A stretch of 64,000 bases of DNA from NCBI GenBank assembly GCA_012862575.1, contig BLSF01000052.1:186001-250000 (forward strand). Reading direction: 5' to 3'. This DNA comes from Parietichytrium sp. I65-24A. Taxonomy: Eukaryota > Sar > Bigyra > Thraustochytrida > Thraustochytriidae. Positions 4,584-39,617 of this stretch are shown here, one piece after another (the first letter of the stretch is position 1; every line of letters begins with the position of its first letter). The notes beneath the pieces are model-generated. The model did no database searches, had not been told where the DNA came from, and saw only the letters and a list, made by a program, of their open reading frames with translations. The position numbers were made by a program, and so were the translations under genes.

Positions 4584-7500
4584 TCATGCGCGCCACGTGC
4601 GAACAGTACCGTCCTCCGAGCAGCTCGCAAGCATGGACTGAGAATTGTTCCATGCAGTGTGAAAGACTGGTCCCGAGTGTCCGCGAAGCTTTGCAAGCAA
4701 GTTACCAGATTGAGTGTCCCACGCATGGACCTTTCCATCCTCCGACCCGCTGAATACCAGGGCTTCCAGAGGGCCAAACACTGCTCGCACAAAGTTGAGA
4801 GAACTGTTTTGGTACCCACCAAATCGCCGAATGGATCTTCCAGTGCGGACGTCCCACAATCGCACGGAACTGTCTTTGGAGCTGCTAAGTATCTGAAGCC
4901 CGTCCCTGCTTACGTCCACCGAGGTGACCTCTCCTACAGGCTGGTAAAAAGTGCGAATGCACACCCCGCTAACCGTATCCCAGAACTTTATCGTCGAGTC
5001 TTTGGACGCTGATATGATGAGGTTCCCGAACGGATTGAACTTGACGTGCGTCACTGCCGAGCTATGACCGTGAAATGCCTTCACGACCTGGTTCGTGCGC
5101 AAGTTGACGAGGCGGACGGTCTTGTCGTACCCAGCAGTAACTAGATGCGCTTGGTCGTAATGAAAACCGACTGCATAAATATCGCCGACATGACCAGTGC
5201 TGACGAGCTCGTGGCGCGGCTGTTGCGGTGCAGCGTTGGAGGTGCCTGACTGCCGACCGTTTTCAAATTCTTCAAGGCAAGACCAAATATCCCACAAACG
5301 AACGGTGTTATCTCCCGAGGCACTGCACAACCACCGTCCTGAGCGATCAGAAGCAAGGTCCCATACCCTTGACTTGTGGCCCTGTATACATACCTCTGCC
5401 CCCCTCTGATTCATTCGGCGGTGGAATTTGCTTTTGCCAACTCGCTCCCCGTTTGCAGAGGAAGTCTCTGAGCCATGAATTCTGGCGCTTGCTTCCTTCT
5501 GACTTGCCAATACATGGTTCATGCTGCTGGAGCTATTCTTTCTCATGCGTTTAGCGTCCGACCCAGACACGCCATTCTGGCTTGTACTGCCCACATCAAA
5601 CACATTCTTGGCCTCTTCCGGATCATCAAGGTCACTTTCGGCATCGCTACCCTCCCCGTCGCTACTCAGTCCTGAGTCATAATCATCTTGAACTTTCCAG
5701 ATCATTATGGTGCGGTCACTGGATCCTGAAGCCAAGAGGCGGCCATCTTCCCCAAGAAATTCCACGCACTTGACATTGTGGGAGTGGCCGACGAATACGC
5801 CCGACTGAATGGACGGAACAGCGATGCTCTGAAAGTCCTCCAGAAGCGTCTCAATTTTAGGGGTCACCCCCGAGTTTGCTGCCGAACTAAATTCCAATTG
5901 GTACGCAACTGCTTGTTGCAAAAGGTGGACAAGGCGGTGCTTCTCCACGAATGTTGGCCGAGAGAGCAGAGAGGTCTCCTCCGTTGTGCTATACTCAGAA
6001 ATAACCATGGTTTTAAAGTCTTCGGCCAGCTTGTCTCTCGCAATTGTGGCGTCCCAGTTTCGGAAAGAAGTCGCGTCGTGTACCGATTTGCAGGTCAGCA
6101 AGTAGCACAAGTCAGCAAACTCGTTCCCGTCCCCTTGCGCTTTACTTTGTGCCTCCAGAGGCTTTAGTTTCTTGTGCAAAAAGGAGAACGCTCGCTCGTT
6201 TTCGCCTCTGGAAATAAGTTCGAGGTACTCTTGTTTGTGGAGAGCGTAAAGGAATCGTCGATTGTTTCTGCCCAAGATTGACTTGGTGTTAAATTTTGAG
6301 ATTGCGGTCCATTCTCCTCGCGCAATCAAGTCGTAGATCTGTTGCGCCTTGTCGTGCATTTCACTTCTCTTCTGCAACTTGATCTGTGCCTCGTCTTGCA
6401 GAGTGAGGGAGGCCGCTGTGTACCCTTCTGATTGCAGATAGGTCCCAATAATTCGAAGCACGTCATTCTTCACCCCAGGATCTTCGGGATCGAGAACTTT
6501 GAGTGGATCAAAACATTTTTCCCTAGAACCCCGACGAATTCCGCCTCTCGCGACAGCTGCGTCTGAATTCGCACTTTTCGGACGTCCACCGCCCTGCTTT
6601 GATTGCGCTCCACTGGATGCCGTTGTTTCAAAATGTGGAGTACCTGGCCTGCTCTTCTTTATTGGAACAAACGCGGACACCGCAACCGACTCTTTGCCGT
6701 TGCTGCCTTCCATGGTCGGGGTTTTCCTATCTTCCAACGTAGCGGCAGTTGATGCAGCTGACATGGCTGAGAGTGATGATGAGCGTGGCGCCTTTTCGTC
6801 ACTTACTTCACATGATTCTACCGCTGCCTGACTTGATGCCACCATGCCCTCAGCAGTCGAGGGCGGTGTTGGGGTCGGTGAAGCCGACTTGGAATTGGCT
6901 ATTATATCGCTGTTGTATATGTCCTTGCAATCGTTGCAAGCGCACATGACCCTAAACTTAATCTGTCTTATAATCCTCGTGTCTGTGAAAGCTTCGCCTT
7001 TTTCACTGCTGGACTGGTGCAAGTTATGCACCGAGAGCAGGAAGCGGTAGATATCATCCTGACAATTGAGCAACGCCAGGCGTGCCGACTCCTTCAGTTC
7101 ATCTCCAAGCGCCTTCAAGCTCGATTGCTTGGCATCGGAAAGCCTGTGCGACACTAAAATTTGAAGCGCTTCAAGATGACCGTTGGACGCCGCAAGGAGT
7201 ATCGCCGAACGCGAGTTGTGAAGCTTTTCGCCCCAGCTATAGCTCTTATCTTCCTGCTTTTGCGACCACGGCTCTAATGCTGCGCCGCAAAGAATGAGCT
7301 CTTGAATGAACGCTGCGTGTCCGTTCGCAGCGGCAATTTTAAAAGGTGTAAGTCCGAATTGATTTCTTGTGTCGAGGTCGGCGGAGCTGGCTGCTAGTAT
7401 TTTCACGAGCATGTCCTTCCCTGACCGTGCCGCAAAGTGGGCTGCTGAATTACCAGCATTGTCGACAGTGTTCACGTCACACTCTATCCTACATAGGGCC

Positions 7501-8197
7501 TCGACGATTGTGTGGAAACCCTTCGAGCACGCCAACATCAGTGGCGTGACGCCGGAGGAGTTTCGTGCATTGACGTCCACTTTTTCCAGGTCCACTGTTA
7601 GTAGCTTGACAGACCGAAGACACCCTTTCTTGCACGCATAGTGCAATGCAGTGTCTTGTTTGCGATCTACGTTGCGAAGGCTTGCCCCGTAACGAAGAAT
7701 CAAATTTACGAGATCGGGATGATTATTCCTCTTTCCGTGTAGCGAGCAGGCCAGCATAAGAGAATCTATCCCATCTGTCATCTGTGCAGAGGGATCCGCT
7801 CCTATACCGAGCAGAAACTCAGCCACGGCATAGTGCCCTTGCGAGATAGCCGCAATCAGCGCTGACTTTCCTTTCTATTATGAGTGTGCAAACAACAGCA
7901 GAAACAACACGAATGCAACGCTTGGTCAGCAAAGCAGGTATCAGGCAAATCAGAGACGAGGGACCACGTTGCTGGGGTAAAACTTACCTTGGAGTCGACC
8001 GTGTTGACAAGCTCCAGCTTGGCCTCTTCAAAAGAGACAGAGTTGTCTATCGAAGGCCTATGCTCCTCGCCAAACGCGACACCATCTTCGCTCGAAGTCT
8101 CGTCCCGCGAGTGCACGTTGGCGCGGTCCTCGCACGCCAAAACCAGTGACTTGACTTGCTCGAGGTCCCCGATCTCCGCGGCAAAGATGAGCGCCAT
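4584..8197 (-). CDS. Ankyrin-LisH-CTLH-WD40 protein
   Basis: Two exons, complement(4584..7874 and 7988..8197). The intron 7875-7987 has a GTAAGT donor and a TAATAG acceptor, and the phase-0 junction restores an ankyrin repeat that begins just before the exon boundary. Start ATG at 8197 in GCCATGG context; 1166 residues. The order is about six ankyrin repeats (residues ~1-300, with TALHYA and TPLMLA cores), a Ser/Thr-rich disordered linker, a LisH (~530, with IIGTYLQSEGY), a CTLH-like helical block, then seven or so WD40 repeats (~740-1166). LisH-CTLH-WD40 is the architecture of WDR26/GID7, WDR47 and TOPLESS-type proteins, which dimerise through LisH and act in E3 ligase, microtubule or corepressor complexes. 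The N-terminal ankyrin block is an unusual addition. Complex membership cannot be read from the sequence. Confidence 0.88.
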
Positions 8198-16773: not shown

Positions 16774-17766
16774 ATTGCAAGGAAGCGTAGGTTGACGTCA
16801 ACGAACGAATCCACAGGCATAAGCCTGCGGAGATGGCGCTGCGAATGCTAAAGTGAGTGGCGTCTGAGATAGAGCGCGCTGTGTGAACTAAAAAATTTGC
16901 CGCCTCTAACGCGGCGAGAAAGGTGACCGGAGGAAGGGAAGGACGACAGTCGTGCACCAGCTCCTTTCGCTGTTTTCAAAACACCTTTATTGGACAGATA
17001 AACACTTCGTTCGACAGACAGATAAACACACCGGTCATGGACAAAATAAAAACACCACTTGCCGCTTGCGAGCAGCTGGGTCGATGACGACAGTTCAATG
17101 GCAAGGAGGTTCTTGCGGAGGGTGCTGCGTCAAACCACGCTCCGGAGTGAAAAAGAATGTACCAATCAGGGCGCCAGCGGAACTCTCTTTCCTCGAGGCC
17201 CCGGCCTACTGCCTGAGGTGTTCTTGGTCGTTCCGCGAGCACTGGCGCTCTTTGCGGCGTTTTCGTGTCACGCAAGAGACCCGGCCTGCTTGGCGGGCAG
17301 TTGTTGCTCCAGGTGGGGGCTGGCGTCGGTGGCCCTTCCTTGGCTTCACCTTTGATTGCTCCTTGACTTGCTTGACTCTGCTGCGCTCGGGGCTCCTATG
17401 CCTCCTCCCAGTTTCTCCACTCGCAAGTATTTTTTCTTCTTGTTGTGTTCAGGTTTGTTCTGTTCCCTATTCGCTCTCTACGGACTTTGGAGGTTTCGAA
17501 TGTGTTGTGTGTTGGGATGCGAGGATGATCAAATATGTCTGGCGGCACAAAGATTGCGGGGACGAAACACCACCAAACAAGTCAATCAACAGAGACAGCA
17601 GTCGCCAAGCAGCAACCAACAGAACAGAACAGAGAAAGAGAAAGAGAAAAAGAAAAAGAGAGAGCACAAGAGCAAAGAGAGCGGGATGAAACCTGATGAG
17701 AGAACTGATGGCAACTGATGCAAACTGGTCCACGATGCAGAGAAGAGTGGAGGAGGACTTTACTAG

Positions 17767-17792
17767 TGTGAGTGAGTGAGTGAGTGAGTGAG
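17767..17792. repeat. (GAGT)n microsatellite
   Basis: About six 4-nt units, immediately before the GA-rich block. Confidence 0.85.
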
Positions 17793-17908
17793 ATCGTGAT
17801 AAGGGGGGGAAAGAGAGGGAGGCGTCATGAGAGAGGAGAGCGGGGTGAGACGCAAGCATAGTCTGCCCCGAGAGAGAGGCAGGCAGGTGGGTGGGTGGGC
17901 AAGTGCAT

Positions 17909-18000
17909 GAGAGAGAGAGAGAGAGAGAGAGGGAGGGGGAAGAGAGATTGAGAGATTGAGAGAGAGAGAGAGAGAGAGAGGAGGAGAGAGAGGACGGTCG
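17909..18000. repeat. (GA)n microsatellite, left of gap
   Basis: Nearly pure GA dinucleotide with GGA interruptions, running into the assembly gap. Confidence 0.9.
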
Positions 18001-18282
18001 NNNNNNNNNNNNNNNNNNNNNNNNNNNNNNNNNNNNNNNNNNNNNNNNNNNNNNNNNNNNNNNNNNNNNNNNNNNNNNNNNNNNNNNNNNNNNNNNNNNN
18101 NNNNNNNNNNNNNNNNNNNNNNNNNNNNNNNNNNNNNNNNNNNNNNNNNNNNNNNNNNNNNNNNNNNNNNNNNNNNNNNNNNNNNNNNNNNNNNNNNNNN
18201 NNNNNNNNNNNNNNNNNNNNNNNNNNNNNNNNNNNNNNNNNNNNNNNNNNNNNNNNNNNNNNNNNNNNNNNNNNNNNNNNNN
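18001..18282. other. Assembly gap (282 N)
   Basis: A run of N flanked on both sides by GA dinucleotide repeat. The gap almost certainly reflects failure to assemble through that repeat, so the true length may differ. Confidence 0.98.
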
Positions 18283-18320
<38 letters not shown>

Positions 18321-18336
18321 AGAGAGTAGAGAGAGT

Positions 18337-18373
<37 letters not shown>

Positions 18374-18375
18374 GG
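18283..18375. repeat. (GA)n microsatellite, right of gap
   Basis: Continuation of the GA repeat on the other side of the gap, with GAGTAGA interruptions. Confidence 0.9.
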
Positions 18376-18566
18376 GTCCTGGTATGTGACCGCAGTTGTG
18401 ACGGATAGAATGCGTGGGTGAGGGGAGTGGAACCACTTACGATGAAGGGCTGAAAGTTCGTGAGAAAAAAGTAAAGAATTCGAGAAAAGGAAGAAAGAAG
18501 GAAATGCCAAAGCCAAATGAAGAAAATGCGGAAAAAGTGGAAACGTAGTGACGACATACCTATAAC

Positions 18567-35500: not shown

Positions 35501-36847
35501 GTTGACGTGGCCAGCTCCCGCTGGGGGCACCACTCCAAAGAGCTCGAGCTGCTTGCGCTCAGTCTCCTCTTTCAGCAGGCGAGACACCTGGCATTCGAGG
35601 TGACCCGACCACGGCAAGGCAAACGAGGAGTTGAGTGCTCAATTGTGAATTGAGCCTCCCCGCGTGGCTGTACAGCGGCACAACGGCGCAGCAGCGCAAC
35701 GACGCTGCAGCGCTACAGCGCTACAGTGCGCGTCTTGCGTCTTCCAGAGTCGCGGCCACTGGCTCCTTTGAACCAGTGCTGAGCGCACGGTGTTTCGCGT
35801 GGAACTTGGAAGCGCTGATGTGTCGTCCCAGGCGCACACGTTCTCGATGAGTGCAACTTGACCAAGTTTCTTCCGACTGCAGTTTTAGGCTACGGTATAA
35901 GACCGCCTCAAAAGTTTGAAAACATACAAAATTGGATTGCCTCTGCATTGGTTGACCAGTCGTTGAGACTGCAGCGTCTTGGCCGGAATGAACCGTGCCT
36001 CGAAATTTCACTCACACCTGTGACTTTTCTTGAAATGAATCCGAGACTGAGATTGTGCTCAGCTCCATATCCGTGGTCACCAACCAAATCACGGTCGACG
36101 GTCGACGGTCACGCTCACGGTCACGGTCATCTAACTTCGAACGGATCAATTGCTGAGAGAATGTTTTAGCATGGGAATCTAACCAGTAGCCAGTAGGTCT
36201 TGCCCTCTGACTTTCTGTAAACTCTACCTAACATATGTCAGATGCATGGGTTACTAGCTGCTACAGTGAAATAAGACTAACGAGACACTGATTAACTGTA
36301 AGTATACTGCTGTCTTGATTAGCGGATTCCGCTAAGGCATTTATTTTCACTGCTACAACAGCATAATAGTACATTGCAGCATGAGCTAGTCTATTCCTCT
36401 CTTAGACACTCTCTTATTCGAATATCAGAACAAGTCCTGTTGACTTTCTTACTCGAAATGGTAGCCTATACCATTGCAATAGCTCATACGTTATCCTCAG
36501 TTACTCTATATTACTATAGAGCCTAGAGCTAGTTAGCTAAAGCTAAAAGCTAACTATCCGTATGACACCGTTATAAGGAGTGCTGCTCTGAAAGGCTAAG
36601 GCAGAGATAGGCAGAGATAGACAGAGGCAGGATAGACTAAGACAGGTGCCACAGTGAGAGCGATCCTCGGGTCTGTGGAGTCTGTGGGTTTGTACATGTC
36701 TGTACTCACAGTCAGTACTCAATACTCGAGTACTGCTCCACCACGCTGCCCAGTTCAGGTTTTGAAACGCTAACCGGTGAACATCCCCTCCCCAACCAGG
36801 AGTCAGCACTCGCAACTCCCTCTAGCTTCTTTGGCACACCGGTCAGG
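35501..36847. other. Divergent intergenic region
   Basis: Between the CFAP157-like (minus) and B56-kinase (plus) starts. Contains a GCGCTACA-type short repeat at 35680-35725, a GGTCGAC/GGTCAC repeat at about 36091-36131, and AGTACTC palindromes near 36715-36730. No coding frame is supported. Confidence 0.55.
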
Positions 36848-39376
36848 ATGAGCGACTCTGAGGACCCGGAGCTGGACAGCGCACTCGCTTTGCTCGCAGA
36901 ATGTTCCTCCAAAGCCGATTTAACAGCCGCGAAAACGCTCGAGAAACTAGCGACGAGCCAGGAGCTGCGCGACATTGACATCACGGGCTCCAGGTTTCTG
37001 GGAGCATACCACACAGCTCTTTTGTATGCTCTGCAAAGCGATAACGCACAGTTCGCCACAAGCATGCTTGTAGCCACCTCAAGCTTGATTGCGTATCCCG
37101 AAGTGGACGACCAAGCCCTTGCTCAGCTGCTTTCTCCGAGTGTCGCATCAAAGAGCATCTTGCGACTGGAAAACTTGTGCAGCTCCGAGAGCGAGGCATC
37201 GCACACCATGGAGCTCGTTCGTCAGGCCTATGACCGAAACGGTCGCACAAGGAAAGATATTCGCTCAAGAATAGGAACTCTACTTTCGCGAGTGCATGAC
37301 ACGAAGATATACGACACACTAGCTGTCATTCTGGATTTTGTGGATTCTGTCATCTGTGGTTGGCGAACGCCTATGTCTGTGGCAAACACTTACCTCGTGG
37401 TCGAGCTTCTCATACCGCTACACGAGACCATTGGTAAGACATCGCCTACGGAATCGACACTCGGACTCTTTCACAGAGAGCTAGTGCGCTGCTTCCTTGG
37501 TGCAATCAAGAACTCTGCTGCACTGATAGAGCCCATTATTGATGGGCTTGTGAAGCGCTGGCCAACAAATTGGGAAGGAAATTCCCCCAAAGAAGTATTG
37601 TTCCTGCATGAGCTTGAAGCGATTTTGGAGACAGAAGCAGCGCAAGCGTGCAATAGTCGGAAATCAAGCAATCTAGTTGCACAACGGCTTGCTGCTTGCC
37701 TAGCTAGTGACAACAGCACTGTTTGCGAGCGTGCTCTGATGTTCTGGAAAAGCGAGTGCGCCATCCAGTTCCTCTTCTGCGCTGAGGCGAACCCGCAATC
37801 GATTTTATCCCTCATCCTCCCGCCTTTAGTCAACCATGCGCTGGTACACTGGAACAAGACCGTCACAGTCATGGCGTCTTTCGTTCTCCGCAGCCTCACC
37901 CAGTCCCACGAAGAACTTGTTGCGAAGATTGCTGGCCCACATCTCCTCAGTAAGGGGCTGGTGACAGGCGAAGAGGATGTGGTTTCCGAAATCTATGATC
38001 TTACCGAGCACGTCAGTGACAGTAACAAGCCGGCGTCCAAAGAAGCCCCCCTTGCTCGTGTGGCCACTTCCGTGCCAGAAAAACTTAAAGACGTCTCCTT
38101 CATGAACATGATTGTCGCTGAAGAGCTCGGCCACGGCTCTTTCTCCACCGTTTTCAAAGCTCTCAAGGTTGTGAAAGGCAAGTCACGTTCGGAGTGGCCG
38201 ATATATGCCCTTAAACGCATCGAAACGAAGCACAAGGAGATCGCTGAGAGGGAAGCCACAATGATGGATCGTATTGAGCATCCCAATTGCACGCGACTCG
38301 TGGCGATGTACGAGAGCGACAAGAACATAAATTTAGTGATGGAATTCGCCCACCTCGGAGACTTACATACGTGTGTGTCTGCCATGGGGACTCTCGACGA
38401 GGCTTCTGCTCGCTTCGTAGGTGCCGAGATTGCTGCAGCACTCAACGCGGTGCACAACGAGAATTTGATATTTGGGGACTTGAAGCCTGAAAACGTGCTT
38501 GTGCATCAAAACGGGCACGTCAAACTTGGTGACTTTGGAGCAACTCGAGAATCGACCGCCGTGCTTGATGGGAACGACCCTTTGGAAGGAACCCTGTGCT
38601 ATTTGGCGCCTGAGCTTTTCGAGCAACGCAGCCGTCAGAAACTTATGAGCGGGGCTGGTGTTCAAATCCCCGAGGCTATAGACTGGTGGGCATTCGGCTG
38701 CATCGTATATTATATGTTGACCGGCAGGCCTCCTCTGTGGGTGGAAGAAGAAAAGCAAATGATCGAAAGCCTTGTGCATTTTAAGATCGACCGCTATCCA
38801 GCTGGCTTCCCACCTCTTGCGCAAGATCTAGTCAGTGGAATCCTAGTCCGTGATCCCACGAAGCGGCTGTGTTCCGACGGTGGCAAGAAAGAGCTTGAAG
38901 CACATCCTTTCTTTGAACCTTTGGGACTGGAAAACTTTGATCAGGCACATGAGCTTTCAGCGCCCAAGTTCTCCTCCGGAGCAGTTGCCGCCAAGCATGG
39001 CCCTTGGACACAACGCACGTATTCTATGATGATCGCCCCGCTTCCCTTGAGCTACACTGCGGGAGCCGCACTCGGAGGCACATCTCACTCGATTGAGGAA
39101 TCTGCGCAAGATCAGAATTTGTCATGGGAGCCAGTGCAGAGAGGGGATCCTGTGGGTCAGAGACCGGTCTTTACCCCTTCCCTTCAAGCGGTTAGCGAAG
39201 TCTCTTCAACTGGGATGCACCCTCGCAGTGGTGGAATTCCTGCTCCAACCTCCCGGCCAGGTATTCCAGGAATTGGGGCAACATTGAGTGGTGTTCGAGG
39301 TGCAAGCAGAGGGAATCCGAAATCGGGTAAAAATTCCAAGTACAGTGTGAAAGGCCTGGACCTTACTGCGGGTTAA
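36848..39376 (+). CDS. PP2A B56 regulatory subunit fused to a PDK1-like protein kinase
   Basis: 842 residues in one uninterrupted exon, ATG at 36848. Residues ~55-375 are a B56 (PR61) HEAT-like array: VVELLIPLHE, LIEPIIDGLVKRWP, SPKEVLFLHELEAILE, TVCERALMFWKSE and HALVHWNKTV are diagnostic of this PP2A targeting subunit. After a short linker, residues ~424-692 are a complete Ser/Thr kinase: glycine loop LGHGSFSTVF, VAIK-type Lys456 (YALKRIE), Asp544 in a modified HRD loop (FGDLKPEN), DFG at 562-564, APE at 587-589 and DWWAFGCIVYYMLTGRPP. The C-lobe ends in AHPFFEPLGLENF, reminiscent of PDK1. HRD His-Arg is Phe-Gly, so it is a non-RD kinase, but all chemistry residues are kept. The tail is Gly/Ser/Pro-rich. 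The fusion would place a kinase inside a PP2A holoenzyme; that is inference. Confidence 0.93.
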   Translation: MSDSEDPELDSALALLAECSSKADLTAAKTLEKLATSQELRDIDITGSRFLGAYHTALLYALQSDNAQFATSMLVATSSLIAYPEVDDQALAQLLSPSVASKSILRLENLCSSESEASHTMELVRQAYDRNGRTRKDIRSRIGTLLSRVHDTKIYDTLAVILDFVDSVICGWRTPMSVANTYLVVELLIPLHETIGKTSPTESTLGLFHRELVRCFLGAIKNSAALIEPIIDGLVKRWPTNWEGNSPKEVLFLHELEAILETEAAQACNSRKSSNLVAQRLAACLASDNSTVCERALMFWKSECAIQFLFCAEANPQSILSLILPPLVNHALVHWNKTVTVMASFVLRSLTQSHEELVAKIAGPHLLSKGLVTGEEDVVSEIYDLTEHVSDSNKPASKEAPLARVATSVPEKLKDVSFMNMIVAEELGHGSFSTVFKALKVVKGKSRSEWPIYALKRIETKHKEIAEREATMMDRIEHPNCTRLVAMYESDKNINLVMEFAHLGDLHTCVSAMGTLDEASARFVGAEIAAALNAVHNENLIFGDLKPENVLVHQNGHVKLGDFGATRESTAVLDGNDPLEGTLCYLAPELFEQRSRQKLMSGAGVQIPEAIDWWAFGCIVYYMLTGRPPLWVEEEKQMIESLVHFKIDRYPAGFPPLAQDLVSGILVRDPTKRLCSDGGKKELEAHPFFEPLGLENFDQAHELSAPKFSSGAVAAKHGPWTQRTYSMMIAPLPLSYTAGAALGGTSHSIEESAQDQNLSWEPVQRGDPVGQRPVFTPSLQAVSEVSSTGMHPRSGGIPAPTSRPGIPGIGATLSGVRGASRGNPKSGKNSKYSVKGLDLTAG

Positions 39377-39617
39377 AGGCCTTGCCGTTTCATCGAATGC
39401 GTGCAACAATGAACAAAATACTAACCATCTATGGCGGAGAATAAGTTTGGATGGCCGAGGAGGAATGTAAAAACTGAATCCGCGTACCTCGTATTGCCCA
39501 GACTAAATATGAGCTCGAGCCAGCTGCAGGCGCGCCAAGACTTGTCAGAAAACATGTTGAATTTTATGTCAAATTTTATTTTGTTAATAATATATTGCAG
39601 CTCCGGAAAGTCAATCG

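Follow-up and report, generated by a model that had tools for sequence, protein, structure and literature searches.

A reading frame in Parietichytrium joining a diverged PP2A B56-derived HEAT array to an AGC-like protein kinase domain

Introduction

In the cases that we have met, protein kinases and the B56 class of protein phosphatase 2A (PP2A-B56) come together as separate proteins, often by way of short motifs. Among these cases is Neurospora COT1, an AGC-group (NDR) kinase which is physically associated with a B56 subunit, although kinase and B56 are separate proteins (PMC5591878). A closer approach to a single molecule is provided by the MadBub/Bub proteins: in some organisms one protein links a kinase and B56-PP2A, but the B56 subunit is recruited through a short motif and belongs to a different polypeptide from the kinase (PMC10155811). 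Human Bub engineered to have both kinase and B56-phosphatase activity is reported not to support normal mitosis (PMC10155811).

Kinase and phosphatase functions are found on one polypeptide in the kinase-PP2C proteins of oomycetes and plants (PMC3019232, PMC10925823). These carry a catalytic phosphatase domain, whereas the protein described here carries the array of a regulatory subunit. In the list of accessory domains given for kinases of P. infestans, B56 does not appear (PMC3019232).

Our subject here is a gene of the thraustochytrid Parietichytrium sp. I65-24A, located in a window (the whole stretch of DNA that was analysed) of 64,000 nucleotides, C52:186001-250000. A first-pass annotation, made from the letters of the window, had proposed that a PP2A targeting subunit of B56 type and a complete protein kinase are fused in one protein, an arrangement for which it knew of no example in model organisms. 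Our search of the literature on such fusions and on protist kinomes, which covered titles and the beginnings of abstracts, agrees with this: it returned no B56-kinase fusion. Fusions of this kind may have been documented elsewhere, since subscription journals were thinly covered and eukaryotic domain architectures were outside the search.

A B56 array fused to a kinase would be another route for coupling the two activities, or else a phosphatase subunit turned into a kinase scaffold. If the natural fusion still binds PP2A, it would be an informative exception, because the engineered Bub combinations failed in normal mitosis (PMC10155811). The genome retains canonical B56 and PDK1 genes, which allow a residue-level comparison of the fused copy with paralogues from the same organism.

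Organization of the fusion frame

The frame occupies positions 36848..39376 of the window on the + strand, as do all of its parts described below, and consists of 842 codons and a stop with no internal stop codon. It lies within a stop-to-stop stretch of 911 codons. Both halves give Pfam matches far above the respective cut-offs, and the proposal of a B56 array and a complete kinase in one 842-codon frame is borne out. The B56 family (PF01603) is matched by residues 102-361 (37151..37930; 121.9 bits, E 4.3e-35, cut-off 25) over profile positions 138-384 of 413, and Pkinase (PF00069) by residues 424-689 (38117..38914; 162.9 bits, E 1.3e-47, cut-off 31.7). No PH family occurs among the eight Pfam matches of the fusion at E <= 1.

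The B56 part had originally been placed at residues 55-375. The match is significant, but it starts only near residue 102. Residues 7-110 (36866..37177), which a single-sequence model predicts to be helical, fall outside it except for the last few. The two matches are separated by a linker (residues 362-423; 37931..38116), and the kinase is followed by a Ser-, Gly-, Ala- and Pro-rich tail at the C terminus (38915..39373).

Divergence of the B56 half

Searched alone, residues 1-418 give 14 PDB matches at E <= 1, every one of them a B56 chain or a B56-containing construct (best E 1.5e-26). The B56 half is about 25% identical to the human gamma, delta and epsilon chains over 346-364 aligned residues. 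Helices make up most of the single-sequence model for residues 1-420, which is weak (mean pLDDT 57.4), with values of 72-92 for the blocks of residues 11-110. Foldseek returns four matches at E <= 0.001 with this model, all of them B56 chains (best 2npp_B, E 3.5e-6, TM 0.46), which, given the weakness of the model, supports the fold but falls short of proof.

For a comparison of individual residues, we placed the fusion (trimmed to residues 1-420) in an alignment beside three human chains and six paralogues from the same genome, one of which (L004) was trimmed to 560 residues. In the numbering of human B56gamma, used below unless stated otherwise, the groove that binds LxxIxE motifs corresponds to residues 125-180 of the fusion (37220..37387). 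Three of its seven tested residues are kept (Y190, R197 and R201) and four are changed (H187R, R188Q, K240S and H243N), in all four alignment settings. An altered docking groove had been anticipated in the first-pass annotation and stands, but the Leu-Val-Arg example given for it was one residue out of register, since L186-H187-R188 is represented by V-R-Q. With E226, I227 and I231 included, which are D, F and V in the fusion, 3/10 groove residues are kept, against 10/10 in the three canonical paralogues (L001-L003). On the seven-residue count these three keep all seven, and L004 keeps six. H187 and R188 are described as conserved across all B56 isoforms (PMC7108865). The substitutions H187A and R197A are reported to abolish BubR1 binding, and K240A and H243A to weaken it (PMC4930772).

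Features linked to assembly with the PP2A A and C subunits are also affected. The acidic loop (EEDEP..W), present in L001-L003, has no counterpart in the fusion in any of the four alignment settings; in B56delta, the acidic-loop substitutions E198K and E200K impair A and C binding (PMC7072873). Three lysines of B56alpha, K181, K217 and K227, are represented in the fusion by S, R and S, and the triple alanine mutant of B56alpha loses A and C binding (PMC9974998). The last of them is equated with gamma K202 in that source; K156 and K192 were derived as the equivalents of the other two by the same offset. At E276, E310, D313 and E316 of the acidic patch the fusion has K, A, E and Q, in a region which also varies in the canonical paralogues (positions 313 and 316 in L001-L003 and 310 in L002).

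These losses are unevenly distributed. Six B56 proteins (the three human and L001-L003) share 112 invariant positions, of which the fusion keeps 44, with 52 changed and 16 missing; L004 keeps 68/112. From N to C terminus, the fusion retains 17/72 invariants in gamma 23-250, 6/11 in 251-290 and 21/29 in 291-434. Within gamma 291-330 all ten are kept, again in three other alignment settings. The best-kept part of the array by this count, residues 238-336 (37559..37855), runs from WP..SPKEV.FL.ELE.IL to HWN. The C-terminal part of the array thus looks to be under constraint, as fold core or as surface. On these counts a standard PP2A targeting role for the B56 half is unlikely, its C-terminal part being the better kept. 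The loss of the acidic loop and of two of the three lysines linked to A and C binding weakens the case for a kinase on a phosphatase holoenzyme, and assembly of the fusion with PP2A cannot be assumed. Since R197 and the other two groove residues are kept together with 21 of the 29 C-terminal invariants, some contact with PP2A could nevertheless survive.

We give about half of our confidence to a single-gene fusion in which the B56 solenoid has been repurposed to position an unusual AGC-like kinase and would no longer be a standard PP2A targeting subunit. If the frame is expressed and folds as its homologies suggest, one gene would yield a HEAT solenoid of PP2A-B56 origin together with an AGC-like kinase. 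In such a protein the array would act as a scaffold, positioning or regulating the kinase or binding a partner.

The strongest competitor, which we nonetheless consider unlikely, keeps the B56 half in its original role: it would still assemble with PP2A A and C and tether the kinase to a phosphatase holoenzyme. The clear B56 homology is consistent with this, as are the retained Y190, R197 and R201 and a glutamate aligned with E420 of B56delta, a residue described as near the catalytic core of C (PMC7072873). Binding would, however, have to proceed through a surface stripped of its known holders: the acidic loop is absent, the equivalents of K156 and K202 are serines, and human B56 mutants of these same features lose A and C binding (PMC7072873, PMC9974998).

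The N- to C-terminal gradient in conservation also accommodates another, distinctly improbable form of coupling. The kept C-terminal part would hold the PP2A catalytic subunit alone, with neither the A subunit nor the LxxIxE groove, in a pseudo-trimer-like assembly acting as a kinase-phosphatase switch. A CIP2A-B56alpha-PP2Ac pseudotrimer that has no A subunit has been reported (PMC9974998). The parallel is distant, for the B56 in the CIP2A complex is normal, and the residues kept in the fusion may simply be fold core. The C-terminal tail contains an LxxIxE-like match, LQAVSE (residues 779-784; 39182-39199), which might additionally dock the genome's canonical PP2A-B56; it is a post hoc match that arises in 2.5% of shuffles and is given little weight.

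The kinase half

The repurposing that we prefer involves a kinase which is predicted from its catalytic residues to be probably active. Lys456, Asp544, the DFG motif at 562-564 and the APE motif at 587-589 are present exactly where the first-pass annotation had placed them. HRD is the usual form of the catalytic-loop motif in most kinases. In the fusion the loop, LIFGDLKPENVLV (38465..38503), reads FGD, with Gly543 at the position of the HRD arginine. Between DFG and APE (38531..38614), Pro578 aligns with the activation-loop serine of human PDK1 in the PDB alignment, and T566, S569 and T570 are still found in the activation loop. With the HRD arginine and a PDK1-type serine both missing, the kinase would probably be independent of the usual activation-loop phosphorylation.

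In PDB the best match of the kinase is human PDK1 (139.7 bits), followed by S6K1 (128.9), RSK (123.1) and AKT (116.4), and the best 60 of 2386 PDB rows are all PDK1, S6K, RSK or AKT. No hydrophobic motif (F..F/W/Y) was found in residues 701-842. PDK1, too, is not known to have such a C-tail motif.

The resemblance to PDK1 that the first-pass annotation pointed out in the C-lobe is seen in the best PDB match; the trees leave the fusion kinase unplaced. A tree built from 34 kinase domains (L045, whose domain is shorter than 200 residues, was left out) pairs human PDK1 with the genome's own PDK1 at 100/99, with the fusion outside. Compared directly, the fusion kinase gives 48.6 bits against the genome's PDK1, over query residues 8-217 only, versus 142.3 bits against an AKT/SGK-like paralogue. 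Because the genome's PDK1, with its PH domain, is encoded by a separate gene, the fusion kinase was not identified with it; a grouping with PDK1 is not rejected statistically (AU p 0.25). In addition to this separate gene, the fusion differs from PDK1 in having no PH match, no HRD arginine and a proline at the activation-loop serine.

All three placements of the fusion survive AU tests: with PDK1 (p 0.25), with the AKT/SGK-like set (0.21) or with the GDLKPEN set (0.12). Two further affiliations were considered and dropped. Kinship with L022 and L023, which carry an [FY]GDLKPEN signature, was not adopted: the tree places those two with L040 and L044. Their grouping with the fusion is not rejected by the AU test (p 0.12). 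The fusion was also joined to L037 at 84/91, a pairing of two long branches. Once the four long rows (L037, L046, L051 and L053) were removed, a second tree put the fusion in no group, and L037 was not retained as its sister. We class the fusion kinase as AGC-like and assign it to no family.

Replacement of the HRD arginine by glycine is also seen in L022 (C9:86008), L023 (C24:547699) and L044 (C46:180336), which read YGD, YGD and HGD, respectively; they cluster with L040 at 100/100 in the 34-domain tree. The L037/L055 kinase, which groups with the fusion in one tree (84/91, a joining of two long branches) and has no B56 part, presumably resembles ULK4, with a long repeat-like C-terminal region. 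Within L055 (G000:C7:391000-400500, -) its catalytic motif, FCDLKPSN, lies in a run of 1859 codons free of stops.

Paralogues and search for relatives

The genome contains seven B56 matches. L001-L003 are canonical (506, 460 and 417 bits) and are genes separate from the fusion; they are followed by L004 (314), the fusion (124), L006 (61.9) and L007 (41.6). The genome's own PDK1 is likewise a separate gene, located on C26, with a PH domain (PF14593, E 1.4e-27) and 191 bits against human PDK1. Kinase candidates numbered 278, of which 135 were scored, so that kinase counts are lower bounds. No second joining of B56 and kinase was found among the seven B56 and 135 scored kinase matches. Among the same 135 of 278, the kinase match of the fusion is the only one with a B56 match no more than 18 kb away, and inspection by eye of the L004, L006 and L007 frames revealed no kinase.

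L004 (G000:C150:15803-16927) is a B56 paralogue with a long acidic tail and a cysteine in place of R188. L006 (G000:C10:353159-353572) and L007 (G000:C36:81169-81549) are strongly diverged B56-like sequences in which most groove residues are absent. It would seem that this genome has duplicated and modified B56 on more than one occasion.

Relatives of the fusion were also sought in viral and prokaryotic contig collections, with a pattern and with a three-row B56 alignment, and none was confirmed there: the pattern matches (0, 14, 60 and 444) did not hold up in tblastn. Nothing about other eukaryotes follows from collections of viruses and prokaryotes.

Integrity of the locus and its neighbours

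Continuity of the frame was assessed with a codon-usage score trained on 11 other frames of the window (9201 codons) and applied to the fusion in 27 overlapping segments of 60 codons each. The annotated frame ranks first among the three forward frames in 27/27 segments and among all six frames in 26/27, the one exception being codons 271-330, where a reverse frame scores 0.08 versus 0.04. Across the linker the score shows no dip (0.26 and 0.28 bits per codon for 361-420 and 391-450). In the intergenic control stretches on either side, the three forward frames score -0.56 to -0.75 (36150-36800) and -0.92 to -0.15 (39400-39600). The locus lies in the interior of a contig of 308,643 bases, tens of kilobases from each end, in an assembly of 42.5 Mb and 172 contigs. 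Neither PF00502 nor PF00504 is matched anywhere in this assembly. Judged on these properties, the frame is a real gene structure.

An internal promoter, or an internal start at M419 or M421, could in principle give a kinase-only protein and leave the fused form minor or absent. The two methionines are directly ahead of the kinase, but no stop separates the domains and the codon score is maintained through the linker, and we regard the production of two such proteins as very unlikely. Rfam gave no match and ARAGORN no gene, and the promoter scan gave no site between positions 37600 and 38300. An assembly chimera or a decaying gene, to which the strong divergence of the B56 half and the occurrence of the fusion in a single known genome might point, is highly improbable for a frame of 842 open codons with intact catalytic residues and a continuous codon score inside a long contig.

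Five of the 19 larger frames in the window were scanned for families, giving a dihydrouridine synthase, a WD40 protein, a BEACH protein, a frame with a weak AP2 match below the cut-off and one frame with no family. Another multi-domain combination is found close to the fusion at 4584-7826 (-), where a single frame contains, by eye, ankyrin-like repeats, a LisH-like stretch and WD40-like repeats. At 17467-18516 of the window, a long run of N lies beside CT-rich low-complexity DNA and appears as X in the listed frames.
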